From an uncultured Bacteroidales bacterium (GTDB lineage Bacteria > Bacteroidota > Bacteroidia > Bacteroidales > FEN-979): 64,000 nt of DNA. Positions within the stretch are counted from its first letter, which is position 1. Each line of letters starts with the position of its first letter. The notes below the pieces were generated by a model. The model saw only the letters and a list, made by a program, of their open reading frames with translations, was not told the DNA's origin and searched no databases. Positions 7,357-30,956 of the stretch are shown one piece after another. The position numbers were made by a program, and so were the translations under genes. The stretch is from assembly GCA_903887775.1 (NCBI GenBank), contig CAISRB010000012.1, positions 186,001 through 250,000 of the forward strand, read 5' to 3'.

Positions 7357-7429
7357 TGTCCGATGGTGTAACTGGCAACACGTCTGCCTCTGGAGCAGAA
7401 GAGTCTAGGTTCGATTCCTAGTCGGACAA
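7357..7429 (+). tRNA. tRNA-Gln (CUG)
   Basis: Cloverleaf of 73 nt. The acceptor TGTCCGA pairs with TCGGACA; the first pair is U-A, a known tRNA-Gln identity feature. The D arm is GTGT..ACAC. The anticodon stem is TCTGC/GCAGA with loop CTCTGGA (anticodon CTG), and the T arm is CTAGG-TTCGATT-CCTAG. The discriminator is A. No CCA is encoded. Confidence 0.95.
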
Positions 7430-7439
7430 CAACAGAAAA

Positions 7440-7475
7440 ACCCAATTAACTTAATTTCAGTTAGTTGGGTTTTTT
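7440..7475 (+). terminator. Intrinsic terminator of tRNA-Gln
   Basis: The 12-bp stem ACCCAATTAACT / AGTTAGTTGGGT (one G-U pair) with a 7-base loop is followed by a T run at 7470-7475. It lies 10 bases after the tRNA 3' end. Confidence 0.88.
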
Positions 7476-7556
7476 AATAGTCGTTTTGTTAAAACAATGT
7501 TAAAACAAATTGGATATTTTTAGGTTTTTATTACAATTTTATGGACACGATTTAAT

Positions 7557-8255
7557 TTATTTGATCTGGAGAATGCAGGAAGCATAGTGAGCATCGGACA
7601 TCACAAACTCCAGCGGGGTTACTGTTTTTCCCTGACCATAATCCCAATAGGCTGCTTCCTTGACCCATCTTTCAAACCCGACGGTATTGAGAATATATAA
7701 CTGCGTCCCGGGTTTTGCCATTTTCAACCAGGTATTCACCACATCTGTATTGAAATCAGTATCCTCGTCGTCAAAATAGGCGGCAGAAGAGACCCAGGTT
7801 TTTGCAGGTTCATAGTTAACAGGGGTCCTCCATACGGTCTTGTCGTGATAATCAGGATGCGGGGATCCCTTTTTCCATTCGGGATATTTCCGGGTGCCGT
7901 CGTATTCATGGGAACTCCAGGCATACCAATAAATGGCTTCCTTTTTTTTGTCTTTCAGTAAATCGCTTTTAGCCTTAAACAAAGCATTCATCATCGATTC
8001 ATAAGTCTGGCCTTGTGGTAAGAGGGCTCTAAGATCCAAGCGGTTAGCACCCGCCTTCACATAAAATATTCCATTCTGATAGTCGAACTGAGCCGGATCA
8101 TATTTATCAAATGAAGGACGGCCGCCGATGGATACGGCGATGGAACCATAGCCGAAAGCTTTAAAATAAGCAGGATCGGGCCCGTCATACGATGAAGTAA
8201 AGGCTACCAGAAGCAGGGTGGCCAGCATAAAGATCAGAGTTGTTGTCTTTTTCAT
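7557..8255 (-). CDS. Secreted protein of unknown function
   Basis: I do not recognise this 232-aa protein. It starts with a clear Sec signal (MKKTTTLIFMLATLLLVAFT, cleavage probably near SSYDG). The mature part is soluble, without further membrane segments. It is rich in aromatic residues (Trp/Tyr), with segments such as YWYAWSSHEYDG and VNTWLKMAKPGTQLYILN. No cysteine pattern or catalytic motif stands out. It probably acts in the periplasm or is exported. It stands alone, converging on the tRNA-Gln terminator. A short gene-like remnant lies upstream. Confidence 0.75.
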   Translation of the reverse strand: MKKTTTLIFMLATLLLVAFTSSYDGPDPAYFKAFGYGSIAVSIGGRPSFDKYDPAQFDYQNGIFYVKAGANRLDLRALLPQGQTYESMMNALFKAKSDLLKDKKKEAIYWYAWSSHEYDGTRKYPEWKKGSPHPDYHDKTVWRTPVNYEPAKTWVSSAAYFDDEDTDFNTDVVNTWLKMAKPGTQLYILNTVGFERWVKEAAYWDYGQGKTVTPLEFVMSDAHYASCILQIK

Positions 8256-8327
8256 GGGTTTGGTTTTAAGGTTTCAAATAGTGGGTGGAGATGATATATT
8301 TGAAGAATTGACATGTATATCAATGGC

Positions 8328-8460
8328 TTAATAACCAAAGTCCGGTCGGGAATCGGGATTGATCAGATAGGCAGGGAAGATCGCCCAGGTATTGGCATAA
8401 TAAACCGACCGGTTGTTGCAAATATATGTAAAGAAAGCCCGGAAAGCAAGTGTTAGGAGA
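8328..8460 (-). pseudogene. Possible gene remnant (C-terminal fragment)
   Basis: In the roughly 250-base gap between the secreted protein and gltX, the minus strand holds a short open frame. It ends in ANTWAIFPAYLINPDSRPD plus four residues before a TAA at 8328-8330. The composition looks protein-coding (Trp, Pro, Asp/Asn rich) rather than random, but there is no start or upstream domain. It could be the tail of a decayed gene. I see no other feature in the gap. Confidence 0.2.
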
Positions 8461-8507
8461 AATTTATGGTACCACAACGCAACTGCGGCTGTCGCTCCAG
8501 CCTGACA

Positions 8508-10031
8508 TCATATCTTTTTAATGCCCAGATACAACCTTCTCAGGAATTCCTCCTTCCCCAACATCACGGCAATATCCATCATACCCGGGCCCTGGTTTGA
8601 TCCGACTACCAGCAGGCGTAACGGATTCATTAACTGGCCGGTTTTAATTTTTCTGCTCCCGGTAAACTCTTCAACAAGCCGGTGAAGGCTTTCTTTGTCA
8701 AATGGTTCAAGCCTGCTGACCATGGTCGCAAATTCTTCAACATATAAGGCGGTCCCTTCCTGCCATATCTTCTGTTTCACCTGTTGGTCATATGTTTCAG
8801 GAGCCCTGAAAAACAATAAGGAATTCTTCAGAAGGTCAGGCAGTAACTCCACCCTTTCCCTGATCAGTGCGATCACCCTGATCACATATTCAGGATCGGC
8901 ATTGATTCCGTTGGCTGCTAAGGCAGGCTGCAGATAATTGTACAATTCTGCATCAGGTTTTTGCTGTATGTACTTATGATTGAACCAGCGGGCTTTTGGC
9001 GGATCAAATTTCGCTCCTGATTTATTGATCCGGTCAAGAGAAAAGGCCGAAACAAGTTCGTTCATCGAAAAAATTTCCTGTTCCGTACCCGGATTCCATC
9101 CAAGCAAAGCAAGCATATTGATAAATGCCTCAGGCAGGTAACCATCCTCTTTATAACCATGAAAAATATCATCTGAATCAGGGTCTTTCCACTCCAATGG
9201 AAACACCGGGAAACCGAGGCGGTCCCCGTCTCTTTTACTAAGTTTTCCATTGCCGTCGGGCTTCAGAATCAAAGGCAGATGCGCAAATTGGGGCATACTG
9301 CTTTCCCAGCCAAAAAACCGGTATAAGAGCAGATGCATCGGTGCCGATGGCAGCCATTCTTCTCCCCTGATCACATGGGAGATCTTCATCAGGTAGTCAT
9401 CAATTACATTTGCCAGATGATAGGTAGGAAGGCCGTCAGACTTAAAAAGGACTTTATCGTCAAGCGTATCTGTGTGAACTTTAACCTCTCCCCTGATCAG
9501 GTCGTGAAAAATCACTGTCTGGTTTTCGGGAATCAGAATGCGGATCACATAGCGGTCTCCCCTTTCAGTTCTCGTGCTAACCTCATCCGCAGACAGCGAA
9601 AGACTGTTTTTCATCTGCAACCTGGTTTTAACCCCGTATTGAAACTGCTCATGGCCCCGTGAAAGCCTGTTCCTTGCATCTTCAAGCTCGGCAGCCGTAT
9701 CAAAGGCCTTGTATGCATGCCCTTTTTCAAGCAATACCTGAACGTATTCCCTGTAAATCGAAGATCGTTCCGATTGGCGATATGGGGCATGAGGTCCGCC
9801 TTTAATGATATCTTCATCAAATTCAAGTCCGCACCACTTAAGTGATTTAATAATATAATCTTCTGCCCCGGGGACAAACCTGTTCTGGTCGGTATCTTCT
9901 ATTCTGAGGATAAATGCGCCATTATGTTTTCGGGCAAAAAGATAATTATACAGAGCTGTCCGAACTCCGCCAAGATGCAAAGGTCCGGTCGGGCTTGGAG
10001 CAAAGCGAACACGTATTCCTGCTGGTTCCAT
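8508..10031 (-). CDS. gltX: Glutamyl-tRNA synthetase
   Basis: Class I synthetase that charges tRNA-Glu. The HIGH-equivalent is in RFAPSPTGPLHLGGVR (about residues 9-24). The LRIEDTDQNR segment follows, and the KMSKS loop is GKLSKRDGD near 262. The helical anticodon-binding domain fills the C-terminal third. ATG 10031 gives 508 aa, which fits the family. The track start (10088) is a TTG that adds 19 unconserved residues. It is divergent from the DUF4175-like gene. With glnS 3 kb away, the organism appears to charge Gln and Glu with separate enzymes. Confidence 0.96.
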   Translation of the reverse strand: MEPAGIRVRFAPSPTGPLHLGGVRTALYNYLFARKHNGAFILRIEDTDQNRFVPGAEDYIIKSLKWCGLEFDEDIIKGGPHAPYRQSERSSIYREYVQVLLEKGHAYKAFDTAAELEDARNRLSRGHEQFQYGVKTRLQMKNSLSLSADEVSTRTERGDRYVIRILIPENQTVIFHDLIRGEVKVHTDTLDDKVLFKSDGLPTYHLANVIDDYLMKISHVIRGEEWLPSAPMHLLLYRFFGWESSMPQFAHLPLILKPDGNGKLSKRDGDRLGFPVFPLEWKDPDSDDIFHGYKEDGYLPEAFINMLALLGWNPGTEQEIFSMNELVSAFSLDRINKSGAKFDPPKARWFNHKYIQQKPDAELYNYLQPALAANGINADPEYVIRVIALIRERVELLPDLLKNSLLFFRAPETYDQQVKQKIWQEGTALYVEEFATMVSRLEPFDKESLHRLVEEFTGSRKIKTGQLMNPLRLLVVGSNQGPGMMDIAVMLGKEEFLRRLYLGIKKI

Positions 10032-10093
10032 GATAGATGCCGGTTTTCGGGCAGGCAAAGTTAAGGTTATATCCTGTAAGATCAGCAATTTCG

Positions 10094-10101
10094 TAATTTT
10101 G
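10094..10101 (+). promoter_or_regulatory. -7 element upstream of the DUF4175-like gene
   Basis: TAATTTTG fits TAnnTTTG. Transcription would begin near 10108, only 2 bases before the ATG at 10110 and 8 before the ATG at 10116. The mRNA would be nearly leaderless. No good -33 TTG is visible. Confidence 0.35.
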
Positions 10102-10109
10102 CAGTTTCA

Positions 10110-13100
10110 ATGATAATGGACGGGGAAAACATCCTGATCAGTAAACTCAATGAGTTTACCAGGAAATATTATAAGAACAAGATCATCAGGGGGGCCTTGA
10201 TCAGCCTGGGGGTATTATTATCGCTATACCTGATGGAGATCCTGCTCGAGTACTTCAGCTATTTTCCTTCACTGGCCCGTATCATTCTTGTAAACCTTTA
10301 CCTTATAACCACAGCCATTTGCCTGGGATTCCTTGTGATCAAACCTGCATTAAAATACCTGAGGATAGGCAAAACACTGACTAAGGAACAGGCTGCCCTT
10401 ATTATCGGTGAACATTTCAGCGAAATTGGCGATAAACTGCTGAACACACTTCAGCTGATTGAACAACAAAACGATTCAACGGAAAGCGTCGGATTGCTCC
10501 TGGCAAGCATAGACCAGAGGATTAAGGCATTGAAACCGATACCTTTTGTGAAAGTCATAAACCTGAAGAAAAATGCAAAATATCTCAGGTATGCACTTCC
10601 TCCTGTTATTATTTTACTTCTTTTACTGCTGATTGAACCTGCCATCGTATCTGACCCGACCCTAAGGCTGATTCAGTTCAATGAAAAATTTACCCCCCCT
10701 GCCCTATTCAGAATCATCGTGCTTAATAAAGATCTGAAAGCAATGCAGCAGGATGATTTTAACCTCAGGATTGAACTCAGGGGAAATGAAATACCGGAGG
10801 AAGTATTCGTGAAAACAGGAAATTCAACATTTCCGATGAAACGAGAAAACAAATCTGATTATTCCTATAATTTCAAAGCACTTCAGGAAAATACTGTGTT
10901 TACACTTATTGCTGATGAGAAAGAATCGGGGGAATATACAATCAATGTTTATCCCAAGCCCATTATTTTAAATTTTGAAACCCGCCTCGATTACCCATCA
11001 TATACCGGCAAGCAAACCGAGACACTTAGCAACATTGGCGATTTTATTATTCCGGAAGGCACCATACTCTCCTGGATTGTTTATACAAGGGATGTGACAG
11101 CAGTAAAATTCAGAATGCCAAAAGAAGAAATTAAACTTGAAAATAAAACTTCCGGCGTATTTACCTGCTCGAAACGCTTTCCCGAGTCAACCAGATACTC
11201 GATACTCCAGGAGAATGAGTTCTCGAAAAAATCAGATTCCTTAGGGTATTCGGTGACTGTGGTTAAAGATGCTTTTCCTGAGATTACCGTGAAAGAGACT
11301 GCTGATACATCAAACACCGGTAAACTGTTTTTCGAGGGAACTATAAAAGATGATTACGGATTTTCGAAATTACTTTTCTGGTTTTCGGTAAAGGGAGAAA
11401 ACGATAGCTTATATAAACCAGTCAAAACGGAAACAATTGCAATTGATAAAAAAAATCCATCCCAGGTTTACTTTTATTCCCTTGACTTTTCAAACCTGGA
11501 GATTAGTCCCGGTGAACAATATTCTTATTATTTTGAAGTCTGGGATAATGACGGAATACATGGACCAAAACCTGCCCGTACAACAGCGATGACATTTGAA
11601 GTCCCATCCCTCGAGAAAATCGCTGAATCGACTGATCAAAACGCGGAGAACATCAGGAAAGACCTGAATCAGAGCCTGGAGGAAACAAAAAATATTAGCA
11701 AGTCACTGGACGAGATAAACAGAAGAATGGTAGACCAGAATGATGTCACATGGAAAGAAAAAAAGAAAATAGAGGAAGTGATAAAGGCGAATGAGAAAAT
11801 TCAGAAACAGGTAGAAGAGTTTAAGGCAAAAAGCGATCAGAATATAAAGAACGAGCAACAATACCTTAAAACGAGTGAAAGAATATTGGAGAAGCAAAAA
11901 AAGCTTAACGAACTAGCAAACCAGTTGCTCACAGAGGAAATGAAAGAGACGATAAGGGAAATGAAGAAACTGCTTAACCAGATGGACAAGAGCAAGCTGA
12001 ATGACCTTTTGCCCAAGATGAAACAAATGAATGAAAACCTTGAAAAGGAACTCGACCGGAACCTCCAGCTTTTCAAGCAAATAGAGTTTGAAAGAAAACT
12101 TGAACAGAACACGGCAGAATTGAAAAATCTTGCTGATCAGCAAAATAAACTGGCCGATCAGACGAGGGACGAGAAGAAATCAGGCGAAAAGCTGGCATCT
12201 GAGCAAAAAGCAATTGAACAAAAATTCGATACAATCAGCAAATCACTCGATGAGTTAAAAAAGCAAGGCCAGGAAATAGAAAGCACTCCTGATCTTAAAA
12301 ATACGAAAGATGATATAGAGTCTATAAATCAGGAGCTTCTCAGGAACGAAGAGCTGATAAAATCAAAAAAAATGAAGGATGCTTCGAGGAATCAGAAAAA
12401 AACATCCGGGGAAATGAAGGATCTGGCCAATAAACTTGAGAATATGCAGGAAGAATCGACAGAGGAAGCCGAGGAAGAAGATGCCGGAGCTCTCAAACTT
12501 TTATTGCAAAACCTGAATAAGCTTTCATTTCAACAGGAAGATCTGATTTACCAGACTAGGAATATCAATAGGAATGATCCAAAGTATCTTCAATTAATTG
12601 AGGACCAGAAACAGGTCAGTGATAAATTTAAAACGATAGAAGATTCATTAAACAGGATAGCCAGAAGGGAAATTATGATGAAAAGCATCATCACGAAAGA
12701 AGTTTCATCAGTAAAAGAGAATCTGGAGTACACTGAAAAATCACTTCAGGATCGACAGATAGCAGCAGCAATGGCCAGGCAGCAGTATAGTATGACAAGT
12801 ATGAATAATCTTGCGTTATTGCTTGATGAAGCGCTCAGGCAAATGAAAGATCAAATGAATGATGCAAAAATGAGCAGTGGCCAGAAAGCCTGCAAGAAAC
12901 CGGGTAAACAAGGCGGTAAGAAAAGCATGAGTTCGATGAGACAAATGCAGCAGGAAATGAGTGAAAAGCTTGAAAAAATGAAACAGGGCATCAATAATAA
13001 ATCAAAGAATGGAACGAGTCCAAAAACAGGGGAAGAAGAAAGCACGAACAAGGAAATAGCTAAAATGGCAGCAGAGCAGGAAGCGATACGAGAAGCACTT

Positions 13101-13469
13101 CAGGAATATGAGAATGCAATGAAAGAGCAGGGAATAAAGGACAATGGAAACCTTAATATGATTATTGACGGGATGGAGAAGAATGAGAATGATATTTTGA
13201 ATCAACGAATCAATCAGGAAACCATAAACAGGCAGCAACAGATAGTTACAAGAATGCTGGATTCAGAGAAAGCTGAACAAAAGCGGGATAAAGAAGAGAA
13301 AAGGGAATCTGTCGAGGCAAAAAATCAGGTATTAAGTAACCCTGAAGCAAATTTTAAGTATAAGAAGAATAGCAATGCAGGGACAGATATGATTAACTTT
13401 ACGCCTGCACCGGTAAATTATTATTATAGAAGCAAGGCATCAGAGTATATTTTAAAAATAGGGAAATAG
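10110..13469 (+). CDS. DUF4175-like large membrane coiled-coil protein
   Basis: 1119-aa protein of the kind annotated as DUF4175 in Bacteroidota; its function is unknown. Three hydrophobic segments occur near residues 30-50, 57-80 and 158-180. An extracytoplasmic region of about 330 residues with Ig-like strands follows. From about 500 to 1050 there is a very long, Lys/Glu/Gln/Asn-rich coiled coil, with a Met-rich stretch near 890-960. The acidic run STEEAEEEDAG interrupts it near 785. No enzymatic motif is visible. I infer a membrane-anchored structural or scaffold protein. ATG 10110 and 10116 are both possible starts. Confidence 0.75.
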   Translation: MIMDGENILISKLNEFTRKYYKNKIIRGALISLGVLLSLYLMEILLEYFSYFPSLARIILVNLYLITTAICLGFLVIKPALKYLRIGKTLTKEQAALIIGEHFSEIGDKLLNTLQLIEQQNDSTESVGLLLASIDQRIKALKPIPFVKVINLKKNAKYLRYALPPVIILLLLLLIEPAIVSDPTLRLIQFNEKFTPPALFRIIVLNKDLKAMQQDDFNLRIELRGNEIPEEVFVKTGNSTFPMKRENKSDYSYNFKALQENTVFTLIADEKESGEYTINVYPKPIILNFETRLDYPSYTGKQTETLSNIGDFIIPEGTILSWIVYTRDVTAVKFRMPKEEIKLENKTSGVFTCSKRFPESTRYSILQENEFSKKSDSLGYSVTVVKDAFPEITVKETADTSNTGKLFFEGTIKDDYGFSKLLFWFSVKGENDSLYKPVKTETIAIDKKNPSQVYFYSLDFSNLEISPGEQYSYYFEVWDNDGIHGPKPARTTAMTFEVPSLEKIAESTDQNAENIRKDLNQSLEETKNISKSLDEINRRMVDQNDVTWKEKKKIEEVIKANEKIQKQVEEFKAKSDQNIKNEQQYLKTSERILEKQKKLNELANQLLTEEMKETIREMKKLLNQMDKSKLNDLLPKMKQMNENLEKELDRNLQLFKQIEFERKLEQNTAELKNLADQQNKLADQTRDEKKSGEKLASEQKAIEQKFDTISKSLDELKKQGQEIESTPDLKNTKDDIESINQELLRNEELIKSKKMKDASRNQKKTSGEMKDLANKLENMQEESTEEAEEEDAGALKLLLQNLNKLSFQQEDLIYQTRNINRNDPKYLQLIEDQKQVSDKFKTIEDSLNRIARREIMMKSIITKEVSSVKENLEYTEKSLQDRQIAAAMARQQYSMTSMNNLALLLDEALRQMKDQMNDAKMSSGQKACKKPGKQGGKKSMSSMRQMQQEMSEKLEKMKQGINNKSKNGTSPKTGEEESTNKEIAKMAAEQEAIREALQEYENAMKEQGIKDNGNLNMIIDGMEKNENDILNQRINQETINRQQQIVTRMLDSEKAEQKRDKEEKRESVEAKNQVLSNPEANFKYKKNSNAGTDMINFTPAPVNYYYRSKASEYILKIGK

Positions 13470-13558
13470 TAAAAAGGCCGTTTACAGAATACTTCGTATA
13501 TAGGCTTAATTGTAATGCGGGTAGTTTATGTGAAGTTGAAAAACCAAATTATTAGCAC

Positions 13559-14047
13559 ATGAAAAAGGATTACAGGGAAATAGTTATAGCAGGGAAAACT
13601 GAACTATATAAACTCGAAAGGTTTATAGAAGAAATATGTGATTTTCATAATATCAATAATGAATATTTTGGAAATATTCTTCTGGCATCTACAGAGGCAG
13701 CGAACATACTTATTTCTGTTTCTGAGGGGAAAAGCGGTACGGCTCTGGTCATAACCTTTGAGAAAACAGTAAAAGGATTTACCTTCAAACTAAAGTTTAA
13801 CGGGGAAGATATTCCGGGCGGAACAGATCATTTCCTTGAAACCGAGATAAGAAAACATAAACTCGCAAAGGAAATTTATATTATCAAAGCACTTGCAGAT
13901 GAAGTAACGATTTCGGTAAAAGGAGAATCAATAACACTTACCTTTTATGTATCGAGCATGAATTATGAAAAATCCCTGATGAGGATCAATAAACTGAAAG
14001 AATACTGGGTTAAAAAGACCAGTTCAGTAAATAAGGGAAATGAATAA
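13559..14047 (+). CDS. HATPase_c_2-like (anti-sigma-factor-kinase fold) protein
   Basis: 162 aa resembling RsbW/SpoIIAB-type GHKL proteins. The N-box-like segment ILLASTEAANILISV (about residues 40-54) holds the Glu and Asn expected in ExxxN. The downstream region has the strand pattern of the fold. The ATP-lid Gly motifs (DxGxG, GxGL) are not recognisable; the nearest is NGEDIPGG. Nucleotide binding is therefore doubtful. Its last 8 bases overlap ybeY, implying translational coupling. A role as a partner-switch regulator or an inactive adaptor is inference. Confidence 0.6.
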   Translation: MKKDYREIVIAGKTELYKLERFIEEICDFHNINNEYFGNILLASTEAANILISVSEGKSGTALVITFEKTVKGFTFKLKFNGEDIPGGTDHFLETEIRKHKLAKEIYIIKALADEVTISVKGESITLTFYVSSMNYEKSLMRINKLKEYWVKKTSSVNKGNE

Positions 14048-14468
14048 GCAGATTCATTTTTTTTCATATAAAATCAAGTATCTTATAAAAAATAAGCGAA
14101 AGCTGATAGAATGGCTTGAAAGGGTCATTACTGAAAACGGTAAGATCACAGGAGAGATCAACCTGATTATTACAAGCGATAAAGTTTTACAAGAGATTAA
14201 TATAAAATATTTATATACTGACAAATACACCGACACGATCAGCTTTATATTATCAGAGGAGGAAGAAATAGTAAGCGGAGATATTTATATAAGCATTGAA
14301 AGGGTTATTGAAAATGCAGGAAAATACAAAGTCAGCCAGGAAGATGAGTTAAACCGAATCTTAGTCCATAGTGTTTTACATCTAATGGGGTATGATGACA
14401 AAACTCGAAAGGAAAGACTTACGATGAGGAAATTAGAAAATAAATATCTGGACATGGTTATGCAATAA
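14040..14468 (+). CDS. ybeY: Endoribonuclease YbeY (16S rRNA maturation)
   Basis: Metal-dependent single-strand RNase involved in 16S rRNA 3'-end maturation and ribosome quality control. The 142-aa length is typical. The metal motif reads HSVLHLMGYDD (near residue 112). The first two His ligands are present, but the third, usually His (HGxLHLxGYDH), is Asp. From memory this substitution is common in Bacteroidota homologues. It overlaps the preceding HATPase-like gene by 8 bases and is followed by a strong terminator. Confidence 0.92.
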   Translation: MNKQIHFFSYKIKYLIKNKRKLIEWLERVITENGKITGEINLIITSDKVLQEINIKYLYTDKYTDTISFILSEEEEIVSGDIYISIERVIENAGKYKVSQEDELNRILVHSVLHLMGYDDKTRKERLTMRKLENKYLDMVMQ

Positions 14469-14489
14469 AGTATTTCAACTAAGAGGTGG

Positions 14490-14527
14490 ATCGCGTTGAA
14501 TTGTTATTTATTTCAACGCGATTTTTA
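14490..14527 (+). terminator. Intrinsic terminator after ybeY
   Basis: ATCGCGTTGAA (14490-14500) pairs with TTCAACGCGAT (14512-14522), followed by a short T-rich tail. It separates ybeY from the mnmG unit. Confidence 0.85.
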
Positions 14528-14587
14528 TTATAAGGGAAGACAAACACCAGGGGAAAGAAGTATATTAGCTGATAGGTAAGAATTAAT

Positions 14588-22125: not shown

Positions 22126-23022
22126 TCAGAGAGTAGGTTTGTCATTGTTACCTGTAAACTTGATCATAATCAATTCCCAGACAGCATAGAAATAATGAGC
22201 CCATACACCGGCAAGCATGATGATCAGGGTTACGATCATCCACAGGGGTGCGATCGGTGTCCAGAGTTCGCGTGAAGGTACTTCTGCCTTATAATATTGC
22301 TTTGGCACACCCCAGTTAATTGTTGAAGTGCCCTGTACAAATCCGTACTTTTCATTTTCCTCTATTTTGGCGATGATATTAAGATTTCCCAGGGTGTCGC
22401 CTACGATGTTGTTGGGAAATTCAAAACTACCTTTACCCTGGTCATCCAGAGAAACTTCTCCAATTTTCAGAAGGCTGAAAAGCCGGGGAACATACAGTAT
22501 AACGGTTTCCTTGGCAAGGGCAACTTCCTGTCCTTTTGAGTCCTCTCGGGTCCCGGTCAGATTCAGATACCGGATTGAATCCTGCACATTAAAAGACATC
22601 CGGAGTTTTGCGGGTTCTGCGCTGAAATCAGCAGAAACCTCACTGTATTTCAGAGTCCCGGAAAATTTCGCCTGATATGAGATAATCCCTTCCTTACCGG
22701 GCTGAAGTTTATTGATTGCAACCCTCAGCACTGCATTGCCATCCTGATCTGTTATGGCTGTTCCCAAAGAAAGGAGTTTATTATCCCTGGCCGAGAAGAA
22801 TTCAATCGTTGCATTTTTCAATCCGTAAGTGTCACTCTCCCTTTTAACGAACAGATTTGCTGTAAGGCAAACCGAATCATTGGAAGTGCATAAATACGAA
22901 AAAGTAATTTTGGACTGCTGGACTGAATTGCTGTCAGTTTTTTCCTGGGCATGAAGAATTGAAGGGACGAGCAGTGTTATTATCAGCGCCTCGACAATAA
23001 TCCTGTATATATTTCTTTTCAT
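22126..23022 (-). CDS. Membrane-anchored periplasmic protein of the cytochrome locus, unknown function
   Basis: 298 aa, not recognised. N-terminal signal (about 1-25, ending LLVPSILHAQ). A periplasmic beta-rich region of about 220 residues has two Ig-like repeats (DGNAVLRVAINKL and QGKGSFEFPNN segments). One membrane helix near the C-terminus (about 258-285) is followed by a short cytoplasmic tail. There are no heme or Fe-S motifs. It lies 11 bases after the NrfD-like gene and before the riboflavin kinase, so it is probably a structural or accessory subunit of the same complex. Confidence 0.7.
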   Translation of the reverse strand: MKRNIYRIIVEALIITLLVPSILHAQEKTDSNSVQQSKITFSYLCTSNDSVCLTANLFVKRESDTYGLKNATIEFFSARDNKLLSLGTAITDQDGNAVLRVAINKLQPGKEGIISYQAKFSGTLKYSEVSADFSAEPAKLRMSFNVQDSIRYLNLTGTREDSKGQEVALAKETVILYVPRLFSLLKIGEVSLDDQGKGSFEFPNNIVGDTLGNLNIIAKIEENEKYGFVQGTSTINWGVPKQYYKAEVPSRELWTPIAPLWMIVTLIIMLAGVWAHYFYAVWELIMIKFTGNNDKPTL

Positions 23023-23033: not shown

Positions 23034-24347
23034 TTATATTAAAACGTCCTCTGGTTTGGTTTCCTGAACATTGCCGGATACGGTGACAATAGGGATGAAT
23101 TTCGAGGCTATCGTGAAGAGCAGGCAGAAAAGGGCTACACCGGCAGCGGTAAGGCTCCATTCAACCCAGGTTGAGGAATAAATGCTCCATTCGGGCCGCG
23201 AATCCTGTATCGGAAGATAAGGCGATTGCAGGGTGGGAATAACAATCAGGTATCTGTTCAGCCAGAGAGCGATAATAACAACAACAGCAGTCAGTGTAAT
23301 ATTTGTGATGGTCCGCAATTTTGCTATTCCAACAACCAGTAAGGGTAATAGCACGCCGACGTAATTTGAAATGATAAATGGCCAGTAGAATTCTTTAAAC
23401 AGGAGCTGGATCAGGAGCTCGTCATTTTTTTCTGAACCATACCATTTGGTAAGGTAGTCACTGAACGTAAAATAACCGAAAAATGCTGCCAGTACCAGCA
23501 TAATAACACCAACAGATATAAAATGTTTCTTCGTAATATACTGTTCAAGGTGGTAGACTTTCCTGAAAAACCACATGGCTACAATAAGCACTGCACTCCC
23601 TGAATACACTGCAGCAATGACGAAATAGGGGCCGAAAATAGTACTGTGCCATCCCGGCTGAAGGGTCACGCTGAAGATCCATGCCAATACAGAGTACACA
23701 ATGATAGCGATGGCAATGACCATGGTTGCCATAATATTTGTAGCTCTGTCAAGACGTTTCTTTTGATCTTCTGTCCCGGTATACCCAAGGGCAAGAACCC
23801 TGTACAGCTTTTTTCTCCATTTGGGGAGTTGCAGCTCTTCGAAATCCCTCATGTTTGCAAGATCCCTGAGGACAGCCAGGTACAGGAAGATAAGGCAGCC
23901 GAAGATATCGGTGGAGATCGCTATAACGTCCCAGGTGATTGGGGATTGGATACGTCCGTGCAGTATAAGATAATGCAGTTTATCGAGCCTGCCGATGCAA
24001 AGCAGGATATAACAGGGACCGATCAGAAGGGAAATAATGGTAATGAATTCCGCCATTCTGATAACAGGTTTTCTCCATGCAGTCCTGAATAAATGCAAGG
24101 TCCCCGAAATAAGGGCACCTGCATAACTGACCCCCATGAAAAATATGAAATTCACGATGTAAATACCCCAGACAACATTATCGCGCATACCCGTTACGAC
24201 ATGTCCTTTTGTCACCTGCTGAATGAAAGCAAACACGCCTAATCCGATAACTGAAAGCAGGAAAAGGATCCAGATATATCCCTGGACCCCCGTTCTTTCG
24301 ATCTGCGGGGCAAACTCCTTCAGTAATTGTTTTTCATTGTTTTCCAT
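23034..24347 (-). CDS. NrfD/PsrC-family integral membrane quinol-interacting subunit
   Basis: 437 aa with about ten hydrophobic helices. It is a member of the NrfD/PsrC/ActC family, which exchanges electrons with the quinone pool and passes them to a partner ferredoxin. Typical family segments include NVVWGIYIVNFIFFMGVSYA near residue 40 and the following SGTLHLFRTAWRKPV. It lies 2 bases after the Tat ferredoxin gene, the classic NrfC-NrfD pairing. Compared with Qrc, Psr or alternative complex III loci, no molybdopterin-type subunit is present. Confidence 0.88.
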   Translation of the reverse strand: MENNEKQLLKEFAPQIERTGVQGYIWILFLLSVIGLGVFAFIQQVTKGHVVTGMRDNVVWGIYIVNFIFFMGVSYAGALISGTLHLFRTAWRKPVIRMAEFITIISLLIGPCYILLCIGRLDKLHYLILHGRIQSPITWDVIAISTDIFGCLIFLYLAVLRDLANMRDFEELQLPKWRKKLYRVLALGYTGTEDQKKRLDRATNIMATMVIAIAIIVYSVLAWIFSVTLQPGWHSTIFGPYFVIAAVYSGSAVLIVAMWFFRKVYHLEQYITKKHFISVGVIMLVLAAFFGYFTFSDYLTKWYGSEKNDELLIQLLFKEFYWPFIISNYVGVLLPLLVVGIAKLRTITNITLTAVVVIIALWLNRYLIVIPTLQSPYLPIQDSRPEWSIYSSTWVEWSLTAAGVALFCLLFTIASKFIPIVTVSGNVQETKPEDVLI

Positions 24348-24349: not shown

Positions 24350-25315
24350 CTACAGCTTATGTTTTTGAGCGTATGGTGTATTGAGATATCTGTTTTTAAC
24401 ACTCTCATCGAGATCATTAAATCCGCGATCTACCGGGAACTGCCTGTCAACAGGCGGAAGGTAATACACGCATGGCCTGGTTCCGAGAACTTCCAGATAA
24501 CGGTATCCGGCCCGGTCACGTATCAGTTCGCTGAATTGGAAAGTTTCAGTTCCATTGGTCACGGTATCTTCATCCACATCACCAAAATAGATAACACCCA
24601 TCGGGCATGATGAAACACAATATGGAACTTTTCCAACCCGGATAAGGTCGGGGCAGAAATCGCATTTCGAAACGGTGCCTTCTTTGCCCGGGCTGCTTGC
24701 TTCCGGTGAATAAGGTTGCTTATCTTCGTCAAATTCAGGGTAATGTTTCCAGGCGAATACCCTGGTGGAATAAGGGCAGCCTGTCATGCAGAATTTACAT
24801 CCTATGCAACGGTTATTATCTATTAATACAATGCCATCGGTTCGCTTAAACGTAGCTCCAACAGGACAAACGCTCACGCACAACGGGTTATCGCAATGGA
24901 AACAGGGTTTTGGGAACCAGTATGGCGATGTTTTTTCGGAGTCCTGTAAAAGATAAACTTTCATGAATTCCTGACTTTTCGGAAGATGGTGGGCTTTTTG
25001 GCAACCCTCAACACATTTGCGGGCATTTTTACATTTTCCGAGGTCTATGACCATTACAAATTTCTTTCCGGGAATTCCCAGGTGAGCTTCTTCAATTGAA
25101 ACCCTTGGAAGTTTAAGCATAGCCTTGTCTACCTCCATGACCTCCCCATTTGTGGTCATAACTTTTACCTTTTCGCCGCTTTCACCCCCTGTTTTTTCGG
25201 AATATGCCTTAAGCATACCTCCGCTTGCAGCCACCGCGGCTCCTGCCAGTAAACCTTTTTTCAGGAACTGCCGCCTGGAATTCTTTTTATTTGTCTGTTC
25301 TTCTTCCACGATCAA
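24350..25315 (-). CDS. Tat-exported multi-[4Fe-4S] ferredoxin (NrfC/DmsB-like)
   Basis: 321 aa, with a twin-arginine signal SRRQFLKKG at about residues 13-21. Four Cys clusters are visible: CKNARKCVEGC (C-x5-C-x3-C), CFHCDNPLCVSVCP, CIGCKFCMTGCP and CDFC-x11-CVSSCP. The last three are canonical. The first lacks the usual CxxCxxxC spacing and may hold an unusual cluster. It passes electrons between the NrfD subunit and periplasmic cytochromes. The start is a TTG at 25315 or a GTG two codons later; a TAA three codons upstream of the TTG excludes anything longer. Confidence 0.88.
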   Translation of the reverse strand: MIVEEEQTNKKNSRRQFLKKGLLAGAAVAASGGMLKAYSEKTGGESGEKVKVMTTNGEVMEVDKAMLKLPRVSIEEAHLGIPGKKFVMVIDLGKCKNARKCVEGCQKAHHLPKSQEFMKVYLLQDSEKTSPYWFPKPCFHCDNPLCVSVCPVGATFKRTDGIVLIDNNRCIGCKFCMTGCPYSTRVFAWKHYPEFDEDKQPYSPEASSPGKEGTVSKCDFCPDLIRVGKVPYCVSSCPMGVIYFGDVDEDTVTNGTETFQFSELIRDRAGYRYLEVLGTRPCVYYLPPVDRQFPVDRGFNDLDESVKNRYLNTPYAQKHKL

Positions 25316-25332: not shown

Positions 25333-25947
25333 TTAATGATATCCGTTAATAATACTCTTGAAATTGCTCAGTGCTGTTTTTCCGAAAGTGCAGAAATATA
25401 TATGAATACACATAAAAATGGTCACAACGAATCCGCAAAAAAGATGCAGGAGGTCGGTATAATCCAATCCGCTTATACCTAACAGGTTGTTAATGGTTAT
25501 CTCCGGGTATAAAAGTCCTAATCCGGACAGGATCACGAGGGGGATAATAACATACATGACAGCGACATACGATAACTGCTGAAGAGGGTTGAACTTTGAA
25601 TCCACCGTCACGGGGAAAGGGGCTGCTTCCTTTTTGAACACACCTATCGTATAATGGTGAAACTGTGATTTCAGTCGTGAAAAATAACCCCTGACCTCGA
25701 ACACATAATAAGCCCCGTTTTTTGTAAAGAGGTTCCCAATGAAAAAGATAATATAATTAACAGACAAAAGGACACCTGCAACATTATGAACAGCGACTGC
25801 GACCCTGAATCTGACAATGATGGTTGGATTTGAAAACTGTATGCTGAGACCAGTAATGATCAGGGTGAGGCAGAAAAGAGCATTCAGAATATGCCATAAT
25901 CTGATCCAGACCGGATAAAGGTATAATGGTTCACTATGATTTTCCAT
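25333..25947 (-). CDS. Di-heme cytochrome b membrane subunit
   Basis: 204 aa with four hydrophobic helices, like the cytochrome b of Ni-Fe hydrogenase, formate dehydrogenase and thiosulfate reductase. One His falls in each of four segments: IRLWHILNA, AVAVHNVAG, DLLHLFCGF and FMCIHIYF. These provide two bis-His heme b sites. It lies 2 bases after the heptaheme cytochrome gene and 17 bases before the Tat ferredoxin, so it is probably an additional quinol-interacting subunit of the same system. Confidence 0.82.
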   Translation of the reverse strand: MENHSEPLYLYPVWIRLWHILNALFCLTLIITGLSIQFSNPTIIVRFRVAVAVHNVAGVLLSVNYIIFFIGNLFTKNGAYYVFEVRGYFSRLKSQFHHYTIGVFKKEAAPFPVTVDSKFNPLQQLSYVAVMYVIIPLVILSGLGLLYPEITINNLLGISGLDYTDLLHLFCGFVVTIFMCIHIYFCTFGKTALSNFKSIINGYH

Positions 25948-25949: not shown

Positions 25950-26966
25950 TCAGTGAGATTTTTGGATACGAATAACAGCATGAATCAGGATGGCAAGTAT
26001 GGTGAGCCCGAATAAAACAAGACTGATGATGTTCAGCGTATTGTTCTGGTCGGGACCAATTGTGGAGGTTTCACTCAGGAATAAACCTTTAAACCACCCC
26101 TTTGTCTTGATATTTTCCTGAACATTATATTTAAAGAGGGAGGCATAAAGAATAGAATTTTGCGCATGACAGGATTCGCATTTTTTCACAGCCAGGTTTT
26201 TTGGTACGATTTCATGTGCGACTATCAGTGTATCCTTATTCTGTGCATGACATTCAATGCAGCGGACATTAATGAAGTGTGTTGCCTGGTTTGGAAGCCA
26301 ATCGTGTTTCTTCAATATATTCGGTTGTTGCTTGTTGGTAAGAAGTTCATATTTTGTGATGTCACCATGGCAGTTCAGGCAAATGAGATTGTCGTATGCA
26401 ACCGTTTCCTGCATGTTTTCATTTGTTCTTGCATTGATCTTGTAAGTATGAGGATTATGGCACATCCAGCAGGTAAATTCCTCGCTGTGTTTCTGGGAAT
26501 GTACACTGGCCGTAAAATTTGAGTCTATCTTTTCAAACTTGAACTTCGAAAATTTTTCATCACCTCCGTGACAATCGATACAATTTGCCTTGGCTTCCAT
26601 ACGAAGATTTCCAGGATGAGGGAATATGCTGTAATCTTCTGAATGACAGTCAGTGCACTTAAACCCTTTATGGTTTGAAATGTAATACTCATTTCGGCTG
26701 ATGATCAGCTCCGAATACATCCTTTTATAACTTATTTTCTTCGATTCGGCATTTTCGAAAATATATTTTGACTGCCCATGGCATCTGAGGCATTTTTCAT
26801 TGGTGGGAAACTGGTCGAGATTAACTATGGGAGTTTTTTCAACAGATTTTGCTTTCTTTGTTGAAGAAGAAGATTCAGAGTTTTTTACCAATGCAAAAGC
26901 AATGGCAAAAAAGAGTAAGAGGACAAGCACAACCCAAGCAGGACGAATATTTGCTCTGTACATCAT
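25950..26966 (-). CDS. Membrane-anchored heptaheme cytochrome c
   Basis: 338 aa with seven CXXCH motifs: CLRCH, CTDCH, CIDCH, CWMCH, CLNCH, CIECH and CESCH. A signal-anchor helix lies at about residues 10-28. A second helix is near the C-terminus (NIISLVLFGLTILAILIHAVI). The heme domain is therefore held on the periplasmic face by both ends. The heme arrangement resembles cytochrome c3/NrfB-like families rather than NapC. It probably accepts electrons from the b-type/NrfD module and hands them to soluble or outer-membrane cytochromes. Confidence 0.85.
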   Translation of the reverse strand: MMYRANIRPAWVVLVLLLFFAIAFALVKNSESSSSTKKAKSVEKTPIVNLDQFPTNEKCLRCHGQSKYIFENAESKKISYKRMYSELIISRNEYYISNHKGFKCTDCHSEDYSIFPHPGNLRMEAKANCIDCHGGDEKFSKFKFEKIDSNFTASVHSQKHSEEFTCWMCHNPHTYKINARTNENMQETVAYDNLICLNCHGDITKYELLTNKQQPNILKKHDWLPNQATHFINVRCIECHAQNKDTLIVAHEIVPKNLAVKKCESCHAQNSILYASLFKYNVQENIKTKGWFKGLFLSETSTIGPDQNNTLNIISLVLFGLTILAILIHAVIRIQKSH

Positions 26967-27071: not shown

Positions 27072-27491
27072 TTATTTTTTCAGTGTGCGCATAAAAGCAA
27101 CCAAAGCCCAACGATCGCTGGCTTCGGGAATTTTCTTATCATAAGCAGGCATCTCATCGCGCCCTTTGCTTGTTTCATAAAACAATTCTCCGTCGGTCTG
27201 TCCCTGGAAAGCAGCAGCTGTGAAATCTCCGGGATTGGTTTTCAGTGAAGCAGCTTTTGGCCCATCACCGACGCCTTTACTGCCATGGCATGATTTGCAA
27301 TGCTTTGCCCAAAGATCTTTACCGTTGCTGATTACGGTCTGATCTTTCAGGTTTACAGATGCTTTTGCGTTCTTATCCTTGTCGGGAACGTTCCAGGGTT
27401 TTTTTGCCTGGGCATAGGAATTCCCTGCAATGAAAAATACAGCAATCACGATCGTGATCACAATTGTAAAGATTTTCTGTGTTGTTTTCAT
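27072..27491 (-). CDS. Periplasmic monoheme class I cytochrome c
   Basis: 139 aa. The Sec signal ends near NSYAQA. There is one CKSCH heme motif at about residue 66. A downstream methionine in RDEMPAYDKKIPEASDRW is the likely sixth ligand, typical of class I cytochromes. It is a soluble electron shuttle by inference, encoded between the outer-membrane barrel and the inner-membrane cytochromes. The intergenic space of about 105 bases to the next gene shows nothing clear. Confidence 0.88.
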   Translation of the reverse strand: MKTTQKIFTIVITIVIAVFFIAGNSYAQAKKPWNVPDKDKNAKASVNLKDQTVISNGKDLWAKHCKSCHGSKGVGDGPKAASLKTNPGDFTAAAFQGQTDGELFYETSKGRDEMPAYDKKIPEASDRWALVAFMRTLKK

Positions 27492-27527
27492 AATTGTATT
27501 TATTAGTTAATAGGTTTAAAATTATTA

Positions 27528-28487
27528 TTAAAAGCTCCACAAGCGGGTCAGGTTAAATCCGAAGAGAATATACCCGTTCCAAAAACTGCCACTGTTGTTT
27601 TTAGCTGTGACATACTGAGGCACAATGCCATTGGCGCAAGACATAAAGATCTGAAAAGTATGTGTGCTGGTTGAAATTTCCCATCCAAGGCTTACATTCT
27701 GGTAAGGGGCAACTCCGCTTTTAATTGAAAGCCAATGATTTGGGGATCTAACTATAAAAGCGGGGTCGTAATTGACAACGATGGGTTGTTCGAAAGACAG
27801 GATAACAGATGATTGGGGGCTGACTTTCACGCGACCAAGGAGAGAAAAGGAAGCAACGTCATTGGTTGGAGCAGCACCATCTGTAACAGTAGTATCGACC
27901 TTATTAAAATGGGAGTAAGACAGGCCAATTTGCATTGAGAACATTTTGCAGAACCTGCGGGCAAACATGAATTCATGGTACCAGGAAAACCTGTCAGTGA
28001 ATTTATAACCCACTCCGTATCCGGCATTACTGGTTTTGGTGTCAAGGCCAAGATCGCCATAATAAGCGATCGTCAGAGGGCAACCTCCTTTTCTCTGATG
28101 AAGGAAAGTATATTTCACCTGCAGGTCCTGGACCATATAATTTTTGGTTGTCCCTAAACCGATCATAAGGTTTTTAATGGGGGTGAAATTGAGTCCGAGG
28201 CGGATATTCGAGGCTCCCCACAAACCGTAAATGTCCTTTATACCGTTCTGGATATTTCCGAAACGGTGCTGGAGGATAAATTCAAGGGTTTTTGCCGGAG
28301 TAACGGTAACTGTCTGGTAATCCATGAAAATCCCGCTCTCAAACGGATTTTTTTCAAGGGGCTTTTTTGCAGGCTGGGCAGAGGCCGAATCAGCAGATTC
28401 CTGTGCGGAAGCCACAACCAGTCCCGAGAAAAAGAATAATATACTGAGGAAAATCTTTTTGATTGTCATAGTAATGGTTTTATTCAT
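27528..28487 (-). CDS. DUF5777-type outer-membrane beta-barrel protein
   Basis: 319 aa. A signal peptide ends near VVASAQ. Alternating amphipathic strands follow, with the segments AKTLEFILQHRFGNIQNG and DIYGLWGASNIRLGL that I associate with DUF5777 proteins. The protein ends in Phe (RLWSF), the usual outer-membrane barrel C-terminus. There is a second in-frame ATG at codon 7. Family function is unknown, but these genes often sit next to cytochromes. Here the gene lies between heme lipoproteins and soluble cytochrome c, so it could be the porin part of an electron conduit. Confidence 0.78.
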   Translation of the reverse strand: MNKTITMTIKKIFLSILFFFSGLVVASAQESADSASAQPAKKPLEKNPFESGIFMDYQTVTVTPAKTLEFILQHRFGNIQNGIKDIYGLWGASNIRLGLNFTPIKNLMIGLGTTKNYMVQDLQVKYTFLHQRKGGCPLTIAYYGDLGLDTKTSNAGYGVGYKFTDRFSWYHEFMFARRFCKMFSMQIGLSYSHFNKVDTTVTDGAAPTNDVASFSLLGRVKVSPQSSVILSFEQPIVVNYDPAFIVRSPNHWLSIKSGVAPYQNVSLGWEISTSTHTFQIFMSCANGIVPQYVTAKNNSGSFWNGYILFGFNLTRLWSF

Positions 28488-28500
28488 GATTATACTTGAT

Positions 28501-28860
28501 TTAATTATTTAAAGCTCCCTGATTAATCCAGTTTTTGATCAGCGCGGCTGAAGTTGCATCGCAATAAGAGGCCATGGTACCACTTGATACTTTCTGATAC
28601 AGAATGCTTGAGGCAGCATCCCCTGCAACGAACAGGCTATTATCCTTCAGGCTCTGATAGGAACTTCCGGCAACGAGGTCAGGTGCAGGGCCTCCGGGTT
28701 TGTGGCAGGTACAACCCTTGGTAAATATTGGCTGGATATCGGTTGCATAACTTACAGGGGTGCTGGGAGAAGGGATGTCAGGATATATTTTAGCGTATTC
28801 GCAGGCGGCCAAAGTATAAACTACCAGAACAATTGATAAAAGATTGAATAACTTTTTCAT
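28501..28860 (-). CDS. Small cytochrome-like lipoprotein with a CXCH motif
   Basis: 119 aa with lipobox LAAC at residues 17-20. The mature part resembles Bacteroidota lipoprotein cytochromes (TDIQPIFTKGCTCHKPGGPAP ... ILYQKVSSGTM ... IKNWINQGA), which normally have C-x2-CH. Here the read sequence is C-T-C-H, one residue short of the heme c motif. The Met in SSGTMASYC could be a distal ligand. It may bind heme by a contracted motif or may have lost heme. It lies 13 bases before the DUF5777 barrel gene and probably faces the periplasm or the cell surface. Confidence 0.72.
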   Translation of the reverse strand: MKKLFNLLSIVLVVYTLAACEYAKIYPDIPSPSTPVSYATDIQPIFTKGCTCHKPGGPAPDLVAGSSYQSLKDNSLFVAGDAASSILYQKVSSGTMASYCDATSAALIKNWINQGALNN

Positions 28861-28913
28861 TTTTAAATATTTGTTGTTAGTAATGAGGATTAAGCAATAT
28901 TTACATTTTTATG

Positions 28914-28953
28914 AAAAAAGGCTTCAGGATTGTTATATCCTGAAGCCTTTTTT
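28914..28953. terminator. Hairpin terminator between hexaheme and CXCH lipoprotein genes
   Basis: GGCTTCAGGAT (28920-28930) pairs with ATCCTGAAGCC (28937-28947), flanked by an A run and a T run. It works in either direction. On the minus strand it would attenuate or end transcription after the hexaheme gene, so downstream genes may be expressed at a lower level. Confidence 0.8.
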
Positions 28954-28970
28954 GATAATGGTTACAAGAA

Positions 28971-30053
28971 TTATGGTAATGAATTCATGTAAGTAATCCC
29001 GGCATCCAGCATATCCCTGATATATGCGAAATTGTGAACACCCATACTGCGGTCAGCATCAACCAAACAGAAGTTCCAGTAAACTGCTAACTGAATCTGT
29101 GTGAATTTTTTGGGTTTTGTTGCACTCATGGGTCCTTTCAGAAGCATAGTGTTAGTATCAAGAACCTTTTTCTGTGCCAATAAAACCTTAAGCTGCTGGT
29201 ACTTGCCTTCAATCGTAGTTTGAGCTCCATTAAGGTCGAAGGTAGTGCCGATTGCAGTATGGCATGGCCTGCAAACTGCGACATTATCACCTGTTTCCGT
29301 GCTGGACATCGTAAGGGTGTGACCGCCAACAGCTTCGCCCTGTGCAGGACCCATATGGCAGTTCCTGCAGCTCACATTGCCTTTATGATTCGTGCTGGCA
29401 AAAGCTGAAGCTCCCATTTCGAAAGCGCCTTTCCCGGCGAGCATCAGGAACTGGGGCCCGTGATGCGGTCCCCAACGGGTGCTTGTAACTCCTACAGAGT
29501 CGGTTCCTTTGGGATTGGTGATCCAGGGGCTGGCTAATCTTGCCTGGTGGCATTTACCGCAAAGGTTTGAAGTGCCGTCGGTACCTCCGGGAATCGTAAC
29601 GGTAAGGTCAATAGATGAAGTTGTATCAATATAAGGATGAACAGGCTCAATATCTCTCAATGCCCAGTCAGTCGGGGAATACGTATTGTGAATTAAATGA
29701 CAGGTGCGGCAGTTGATCGGGGCAGCGTCATTATATGCCTGTGTAACGGTAGAACCGGTCTGCAGTTTTTCAAGGAAACCTTCGTGACTATGGCATCCGG
29801 AACATCCAGAACGGGCAGCTTCAATGATTGTGCTTGCCGATGCATGCTTTGAAGCATCATACTGGAAAATTTTAACAATTACGGTGTCCCCGAAATTATG
29901 GCAGTTGGTGCAGGTTGCATTGGCATCCTTGCCATTTGTTCCGTTGGGGCCGGCCGGGCCCTGGGGTCCTTCCTTTGTACAACCGATAAAGATAAGACCG
30001 GAAACCGCCATAACCATGATCCCAGACAGAACTAACAAGAGTAATTTTTTCAT
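28971..30053 (-). CDS. Hexaheme cytochrome c lipoprotein with collagen-like linker
   Basis: 360 aa from ATG 30053; the track start at 30125 adds an implausible leader. The signal has a lipobox-like IFIGC at 21-25. A short Gly-x-y run (GPQGPAGPNGTNGKDA, about 29-44) follows. The heme domain has six CXXCH motifs: CTNCH, CSGCH, CRTCH, CGKCH, CRNCH and CRPCH. The collagen-like stretch would act as a spacer lifting the heme domain off the membrane. I infer an outer-membrane-anchored multiheme electron carrier. It is the first gene after the Crp/Fnr regulator. Confidence 0.85.
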   Translation of the reverse strand: MKKLLLLVLSGIMVMAVSGLIFIGCTKEGPQGPAGPNGTNGKDANATCTNCHNFGDTVIVKIFQYDASKHASASTIIEAARSGCSGCHSHEGFLEKLQTGSTVTQAYNDAAPINCRTCHLIHNTYSPTDWALRDIEPVHPYIDTTSSIDLTVTIPGGTDGTSNLCGKCHQARLASPWITNPKGTDSVGVTSTRWGPHHGPQFLMLAGKGAFEMGASAFASTNHKGNVSCRNCHMGPAQGEAVGGHTLTMSSTETGDNVAVCRPCHTAIGTTFDLNGAQTTIEGKYQQLKVLLAQKKVLDTNTMLLKGPMSATKPKKFTQIQLAVYWNFCLVDADRSMGVHNFAYIRDMLDAGITYMNSLP

Positions 30054-30260: not shown

Positions 30261-30956
30261 TCAGCCGGTTTCGCTGATTTGTTTTAGTTGTTTGATATTT
30301 AGTATTTCAAACAAGTTGCTTCTCACCGAAAGGATTCCCTCTTCTTTTAATTCCTTGAGAATCCTGATCGCACTTTCTTTCGACATCCCTGAAATATCGG
30401 CAAGATCCTGGCGTGAAATGGTCATATTAAAAGGATTTGCGCAATAAATCTTCTCAGAGAGATAAAACAGGGCATCGGCAATACGCCCGGGCATTTGTTT
30501 CTGGGTAAGGCTGATCACCTGTTCAAAATTAAACAGCGTCTGGCTCGAGATACGTTTGATAAAATCTTCAGCAAAGTCAGAGTTTGAACGGACGATCTTT
30601 TTAAAGATGGAGGTGTCAACCAGGCAGGCGGTAGAATCTTCAACGGCAGAGGCAGAGTAATAATGCTTATTATCTATATAAACCCCGGGGCCAAAAATAT
30701 AATCAACAGGCTTTACCAAGGCCAGGATAAGGTTTTTGCCATACCCTTCAATATAGATCTTGGCTAAGCCTGAAGTAATACACACAAAATGAGAAGAAGG
30801 AGTTCCCTGCTTAAACAGGATCTCACCTGCTTTATAAGCAACATGGAATCTCCCTGTGTTTATTTGTTCAAGTTCATCACTGCTGAGGCTCTTAAAAATG
30901 GATGACTTGCAGCTGCAGTCTGCACAGTGTGAAATCAACACAGGTTTTCCGTTCAT
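30261..30956 (-). CDS. Crp/Fnr-family transcriptional regulator
   Basis: 231 aa. The N-terminal Cys-rich stretch CADCSCKSSIF is at about residues 11-21. A cyclic-nucleotide-binding-type beta roll (KAGEILFKQGTPSSHFVCITSG) follows, then a long helix and a C-terminal winged helix with the recognition region SRQDLADISGMSKESAIRILKEL. The Cys cluster could bind Fe-S, but Cys spacing differs from FNR of E. coli. The gene is directly upstream of the cytochrome operon on the same strand and is the natural candidate regulator. A good promoter precedes it. Confidence 0.9.
   Translation of the reverse strand: MNGKPVLISHCADCSCKSSIFKSLSSDELEQINTGRFHVAYKAGEILFKQGTPSSHFVCITSGLAKIYIEGYGKNLILALVKPVDYIFGPGVYIDNKHYYSASAVEDSTACLVDTSIFKKIVRSNSDFAEDFIKRISSQTLFNFEQVISLTQKQMPGRIADALFYLSEKIYCANPFNMTISRQDLADISGMSKESAIRILKELKEEGILSVRSNLFEILNIKQLKQISETG

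Follow-up and report, generated by a model that had tools for sequence, protein, structure and literature searches.

The stretch of DNA analyzed here (the window; 64,000 nt from an uncultured lake Bacteroidales bacterium) carries on its minus strand a conserved gene cassette through which electrons from respiration probably travel outward to a heme lipoprotein. The predicted structure of its outer-membrane β-barrel, a DUF5777 protein, seems too narrow for a tunnel in which hemes could be sheathed. We read the gene set as a redox-regulated respiratory cassette in which quinol-pool electrons would reach a hexaheme lipoprotein that is OcwA-like and anchored in the outer membrane, a proposal to which we give an even chance. 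The locus is best read as transferring electrons to the outer membrane or beyond, with the chances for and against this about balanced.

Gene content and conservation of the cassette

The genes are listed in the order of transcription, from the regulator to P298.

30261–30956 (minus): Crp/Fnr-family regulator (Pfam PF13545/PF00027)
28971–30053 (minus): hexaheme c-type lipoprotein, 360 aa (six CXXCH motifs, lipobox Cys25)
28501–28860 (minus): small monoheme-type lipoprotein (PSCyt1-like), 119 aa (CTCH, that is, CX1CH)
27528–28487 (minus): DUF5777 outer-membrane β-barrel, 319 aa (PF19089, 210.8 bits, E = 2.6e-62)
27072–27491 (minus): soluble periplasmic monoheme cytochrome c, 139 aa (PF13442/PF00034 above cut-off)
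25950–26966 (minus): heptaheme cytochrome c, 338 aa, with a C-terminal transmembrane (TM) helix and CbcA-like architecture (PF14537/PF14522 above cut-off)
25333–25947 (minus): cytochrome b561-type quinol/quinone subunit (PF01292, 78 bits; PRK15006, 177 bits, below cut-off)
24350–25315 (minus): TAT-exported 4Fe-4S protein, DsrO/TtrB/NrfC-like (Fer4_11 and TAT_signal; DsrO, 165 bits, missing the cut-off of 200)
23034–24347 (minus): NrfD-family integral membrane quinone subunit (PF03916, 105.8 bits)
22126–23022 (minus): P298, a 298-aa exported protein with a single C-terminal TM helix, which travels with the Fe-S and NrfD genes

Sequence, open reading frames and family matches agree with the initial annotation on the positions of the four genes from the hexaheme lipoprotein to the soluble cytochrome, all on the minus strand. 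They lie, as it had also described, directly upstream of an inner-membrane module (heptaheme cytochrome to P298), which starts right after the cytochrome c gene. P298 gave no match to Pfam, NCBIfam or the PDB in family and PDB profile searches.

A search of an 85k-species collection, one genome per species, with the heptaheme cytochrome alone returned 468 relatives, which extends the range of the cassette to several hundred species. Gene content was read in the best 80 of these 468 loci. Cytochrome b is present in 78 of the 80, DUF5777 in 76, the small lipoprotein in 71, the monoheme cytochrome c in 64 and the hexaheme lipoprotein in 61; because so many heptaheme loci carry DUF5777 and the two lipoproteins, the cassette is not a chance arrangement. 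The regulator, found in 60 loci, is a regular member of the unit, and the Fe-S protein (50), NrfD (46) and P298 (40) follow, along with an ImcH-like NapC/NirT protein of about 500 aa with seven hemes (21). The order hexaheme lipoprotein, small lipoprotein, DUF5777, cytochrome c, heptaheme cytochrome, cytochrome b is repeated across metagenome-assembled genomes (MAGs) of Bacteroidota. The record titles of the best 80 loci all name MAGs, in one case an alphaproteobacterial one; this locus (L098) is syntenic with those of Bacteroidales and ~63% identical, pointing to probable mislabelling or misbinning. The isolate names of many loci (e.g. Lake Pavin, Loclat, Alinen, Kiruna) presumably denote stratified, humic or anoxic lakes and ponds. 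In four loci (L090, L094, L103 and L146), a single cassette has two genes for the hexaheme lipoprotein nearby.

Among 198 genomes of the order, the hexaheme lipoprotein occurs in 45, the heptaheme cytochrome in 40 and both in 33 (Fisher p = 8e-21, uncorrected for phylogeny), and DUF5777 is present in 39 of the 40 heptaheme genomes. All seven CXXCH motifs of the heptaheme cytochrome are unchanged in 26/26 relatives. Comparison of nine genes with five close relatives yielded dN/dS values of ~0.02–0.16 (dN 0.03–0.19, dS ~0.7 or more), so these genes are under strong purifying selection. A search for plasmid homologues gave no match. In 95 orthologues of the regulator, Cys11, Cys14 and Cys111 are near-invariant and Cys59 is found in 70; these conserved residues suggest a possible Fe-S or redox sensor and redox or oxygen control of the cassette.

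The hexaheme lipoprotein and its relatives

In the hexaheme lipoprotein, lipobox Cys25 is followed by CTKEGPQGPAGPNG. The lipid Cys, the six CXXCH motifs and six other His residues are unchanged in 42/42 relatives. Between the lipid Cys and the first heme lies a collagen-like Gly-X-Y spacer of 11–47 residues (median 26), which forms a physical tether. The best match in a PDB profile search was OcwA (6i5b, E = 8.7e-13), and further matches comprised NrfA/ONR structures (6v0a, 8rv0, 2ot4, 1oah and others; E = 3e-11 to 2e-7), extending through GxHN. On profile similarity, which spans the heme core and the C-terminal helical G-x-HN region, the hexaheme domain belongs to the NrfA/octaheme (OCC) superfamily. 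The AlphaFold2 model (pLDDT 86) had OmhA as its top Foldseek match (6qvm, E = 1.3e-3, TM 0.46). Profile and model together point to a distant relative of two surface terminal reductases that act on Fe(III) or electrodes: OcwA of Thermincola potens, which has a His-His pair above each of two open hemes (PDB 6i5b; PMC6703420), and OmhA of Carboxydothermus ferrireducens, located on the cells and on their magnetite (PDB 6qvm; PMC7829351). About 31 residues before heme 5, the hexaheme protein has an H[H/Y]G motif whose His197 is invariant (42/42), the next residue being His in 24 sequences and Tyr in 13. By its spacing, rather than by alignment, the motif recalls the distal His-His pair of OcwA. 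A PDB search with a fragment profile containing the motif returned mostly NrfA structures, with OcwA not among the matches.

The residues of nitrite reduction differ. At the position of the catalytic CXXCK of NrfA the hexaheme protein has CXXCH, the catalytic Tyr is replaced by Arg (CHQxR), and QHPE is not present. The window also encodes canonical NrfH and NrfA (54118–56274; CWTCK, CAQCHVEYYF, KAQHPDY), of which NrfA (54754–56274) shows all three hallmarks, CXXCK, CHVEY and QHP. We therefore rejected the hexaheme protein as the nitrite reductase of this organism. By eye, an Rrf2-like regulator (49976–50374) precedes the NrfHA genes.

A periplasm-facing terminal reductase is a somewhat unlikely alternative, in which the hexaheme protein would sit at the inner leaflet of the outer membrane as an NrfA/OCC-type enzyme with a new soluble substrate, and DUF5777 would admit that substrate or release the product. 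Membership in the nitrite/hydroxylamine/sulfite reductase superfamily would suit such an enzyme, as would the resemblance of DUF5777 to small-solute channels and a heme whose distal site, beneath an invariant His, may be open. Topology also bears on it: where no export signal is present, lipoproteins of Bacteroidota face the periplasm, and the export signal of Capnocytophaga is C-X-K-(D/E)2, with Lys at position +3 (PMC5080379). In favor of the outward route instead, Lys at +3 after the lipid Cys is found in 78 of 100 hexaheme lipoproteins and likewise in four SusD-type N-termini of this genome; the window protein begins CTKEG, with Lys at +3 and one acidic residue, where the Capnocytophaga signal has two. 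Against a periplasmic enzyme stand the three NrfA hallmarks, absent here and all present in the NrfA of the window, the closest relatives by profile and fold, which are surface reductases, and the strong association with multiheme/barrel clusters.

Such clusters were found outside the order (L184, L187, L189–L191 and L193), where the hexaheme protein keeps its Gly-X-Y spacer and is accompanied by 14-heme and 6/8-heme cytochromes, a candidate barrel of ~425 aa, a tetraheme c554, an 11-heme/cytochrome b-type protein and, in some, an ImcH-/NapC-like protein. Because of the OcwA/OmhA kinship and these multiheme-plus-barrel clusters in other classes, we favor extracellular or outer-membrane electron transfer for the cassette.

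Several observations weigh against that assignment. OcwA has nine hemes (c554-like and NrfA-like halves) and OmhA eleven, versus six here, and the Foldseek match to OmhA is weak. OcwA itself slowly reduces nitrite and hydroxylamine (PMC6703420), which would allow a soluble substrate. The export signal is only partly matched, and some orthologues start with CEGP, without the signal. The hexaheme gene occurs without the heptaheme gene in 12/45 genomes and the reverse in 7/40, and the co-occurrence statistics ignore phylogeny.

The DUF5777 barrel and its small lipoprotein partner

The DUF5777 protein ends in Phe (C-terminus RLWSF), as initially annotated. A PDB search with the barrel profile gave no match, and we found no mention of DUF5777 in the open-access papers searched. 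Its AlphaFold2 model, built from 68 sequences, has 12 strands (pLDDT 83, pTM 0.77), and the nearest structures by Foldseek are NanC, FapF, OmpG and the COG4313 channel. Standard barrel geometry gives a backbone radius of ~11–12 Å for 12 strands, versus ~26 Å for a 26-strand MtrB-type barrel. With these dimensions a cytochrome should not fit inside DUF5777; by this prediction the ground for refutation named in the initial annotation, a pore too narrow for any cytochrome, nearly applies. DUF5777 was detected in 113 of the 297 genomes sampled across the phylum, most of them without the hexaheme cassette; it is therefore not in itself a marker of extracellular electron transfer (EET). The model and this wide occurrence do not support the earlier suggestion that the barrel could hold a heme protein. 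A further idea, that DUF5777 carries a b-type heme bound by the invariant residues His74 and His276, was rejected, since the in/out alternation of the strands puts both residues on the lipid side, at opposite ends of the barrel. A second DUF5777 copy in the same genome (L069, G000:C15) lies with two small PSCyt1-like lipoproteins, a YceI-like protein and an OB-fold-like protein, and L110, L111 and L122 show a comparable set.

In the loci read, the regular partner of DUF5777 is the small CXnCH lipoprotein. The initial annotation had called it cytochrome-like; a heme-type lipoprotein it is, although its motif is CTCH rather than CXXCH. Cys20, Cys50, Cys52 and His53 are invariant in an alignment of 38 sequences. 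Among orthologues the motif is CX2CH in 73, CX4CH in 22 and CX3CH in one, a plasticity of spacing that is unusual. The CX1CH form (GCTCH) is kept in six related genomes/MAGs (the window, L079–L082 and L100), and with dN/dS near 0.1 a sequencing error was rejected. To our knowledge, there is no known case of heme attachment at CX1CH. The protein matched NCBIfam LIC11213_lipo below cut-off (32.8 bits), and its N-terminus, CEYAK, has neither a C-X-K-(D/E)2-type nor an S(D/E)-rich export motif.

The pairing of a heme lipoprotein with a barrel brings Cyc2 to mind, which has 16 predicted strands, the motif AXPXFAR[Q/K][T/Y] and a cytochrome domain of ~20 × 20 × 10 Å proposed to plug the barrel mouth (PMC8406198). 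In three sampled genera of one family (L185, L188:8568–9860 and L192:10614–11870), a protein with an N-terminal CXXCH fused to barrel-like sequence adjoins the hexaheme gene and replaces the lipoprotein and DUF5777. The order in L188 is nearly that of the window: hexaheme lipoprotein, fused protein, Rieske-like protein, cytochrome c, a 13-heme (heptaheme-like) cytochrome and cytochrome b. One may thus picture a split Cyc2-like module, in which the small lipoprotein plugs the periplasmic mouth of DUF5777 and exchanges electrons, inward or outward, with a soluble substrate in the pore such as Fe(II)/Fe(III). The fused proteins and the small CXnCH lipoproteins at the second DUF5777 locus agree with such a module, which we nevertheless regard as distinctly improbable: Cyc2 has 16 predicted strands and its motif versus 12 strands in DUF5777, the match of the fused relatives to the motif is partial, a single family shows the substitution, and DUF5777 is common without the hexaheme cassette. 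In a broader form, which we consider unlikely to a lesser degree, DUF5777 and the small lipoprotein would be the split, minimal counterpart of Cyc2 and, together with the OcwA-like hexaheme protein, would make up a new Bacteroidota-wide electron-exchange system at the outer membrane, coexisting with a PCC3-like conduit.

The initial annotation envisaged DUF5777 sheathing the heme lipoprotein(s) as a trans-outer-membrane wire like MtrAB; the barrel and the heme lipoproteins are indeed near-invariably neighbors, but we give this very little credence given a predicted 12-strand barrel of ~11–12 Å radius, the proposal for Cyc2 that the cytochrome domain plugs only the mouth of a 16-strand barrel, a separate lipid anchor on every lipoprotein, and a globular, NrfA-type hexaheme protein rather than an extended MtrA-type chain. 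On the model, a DUF5777 wire is unlikely.

Proposed electron route and known systems

For the favored respiratory route to the hexaheme lipoprotein, we propose, from the protein families present, that menaquinol would be oxidized at the CbcBA-like pair of cytochrome b and heptaheme cytochrome and at the Fe-S/NrfD/P298 module. Electrons would then pass outward to the soluble monoheme cytochrome c, cross the periplasm with it and be handed over to the outer-membrane lipoproteins. The hexaheme protein, kept at a distance from the membrane by its flexible Gly-X-Y spacer, would act as terminal or near-terminal reductase of an extracellular or outer-membrane-accessible acceptor, which might be Fe(III), humics, another cell or a shuttle. 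The DUF5777 protein, a narrow barrel of 12 strands, would pair with the small monoheme lipoprotein and act as a channel or scaffold, without sheathing a heme chain. Of the parts that the initial annotation had assembled for carrying electrons across the outer membrane, those from quinol oxidation to the outer-membrane lipoproteins are retained and the heme-sheathing barrel is not; its extracellular route likewise keeps the OcwA/OmhA kinship and the multiheme-plus-barrel clusters and loses DUF5777 as the wire. Alongside the cassette the genome encodes NrfHA, a heme-copper oxidase and one molybdopterin protein, so that the cassette forms a single branch of a flexible chain.

If a wire across the outer membrane is needed, it could be supplied by a PCC3-like cluster on another contig of the genome (L168, G000:C33:116000–135999, positions 6877–14563). 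Its products are a 288-aa inner-membrane protein in which the HX13H motif occurs exactly twice, an FAD/Fe-S protein, two cytochromes of 20 and 27 hemes and an exported barrel candidate of 551 aa. Apart from the barrel fold, which is predicted from sequence, this is the make-up reported for PCC3 (a porin, two very-many-heme cytochromes and an inner-membrane protein carrying two HX13H motifs), a system reported mostly from Proteobacteria (PMC5566968). The cluster is kept whole or in part in 14 relatives examined, the second cytochrome ranging from 12 to 55 hemes (55 in L182). The 551-aa barrel candidate occurs in 24 of the 198 genomes of the order, 20 of them with the hexaheme gene (Fisher p = 1.4e-11, uncorrected for phylogeny). 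As a conduit, the C33 cluster is a likelier candidate than the DUF5777 set. These multiheme proteins come from family searches of the genome, and the inventory may be incomplete.

Electrode biofilms and humic-lake metagenomes (PMC8258643, PMC6344600) have raised the suspicion of EET in Bacteroidota, and we found no defined pathway for the phylum in the literature. The cassette supplies concrete genes for such study and, through its kinship with the OcwA/OmhA lineage, connects the phylum with terminal reductases that are known from metal-reducing Gram-positive bacteria. The DUF5777 cassette and the PCC3-like conduit are two candidates in one genome that can be separated for independent testing.

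Compared with MtrCAB and OmbB-OmaB-OmcB, the cassette follows the same logic from inner membrane through periplasm to outer membrane but has no homologous decaheme cytochrome (the DmsE model scored 20.8 bits against a cut-off of 192.2 in a search for an MtrA/DmsE-family partner), and its barrel has 12 strands rather than 20 or more. The barrel model falls short of the ~26 strands of an MtrAB-type conduit. As first annotated, this is a Bacteroidota cassette unrelated to Mtr. The features of PCC3 are those of the C33 cluster and not of the DUF5777 cassette. Cyc2 shares the combination of monoheme domain and barrel, which in the cassette is split into two polypeptides with 12 strands and CX1–4CH spacing and lacks the Cyc2 motif. 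At the inner membrane, cytochrome b and a membrane-anchored heptaheme cytochrome c match Geobacter CbcBA in architecture. Geobacter relies on CbcBA and ImcH for extracellular acceptors of low and high potential (PMC12307469, PMC10553843). The window adds the Fe-S/NrfD/P298 module, and related loci carry the ImcH-like NapC/NirT protein. With NrfA and octaheme nitrite reductases, the hexaheme protein aligns over the last five hemes and the pattern of distal His residues but lacks CXXCK, the catalytic Tyr and the QHP His, and NrfHA is encoded separately. OcwA and OmhA share with it the NrfA/OCC domain, the C-terminal helices, G-x-HN, CXXCH at the catalytic position and possibly a His-His-type motif; at low identity to both, the hexaheme protein differs in being a diderm lipoprotein with a Gly-X-Y spacer, encoded in an operon with a barrel, a small lipoprotein and a quinol oxidase.

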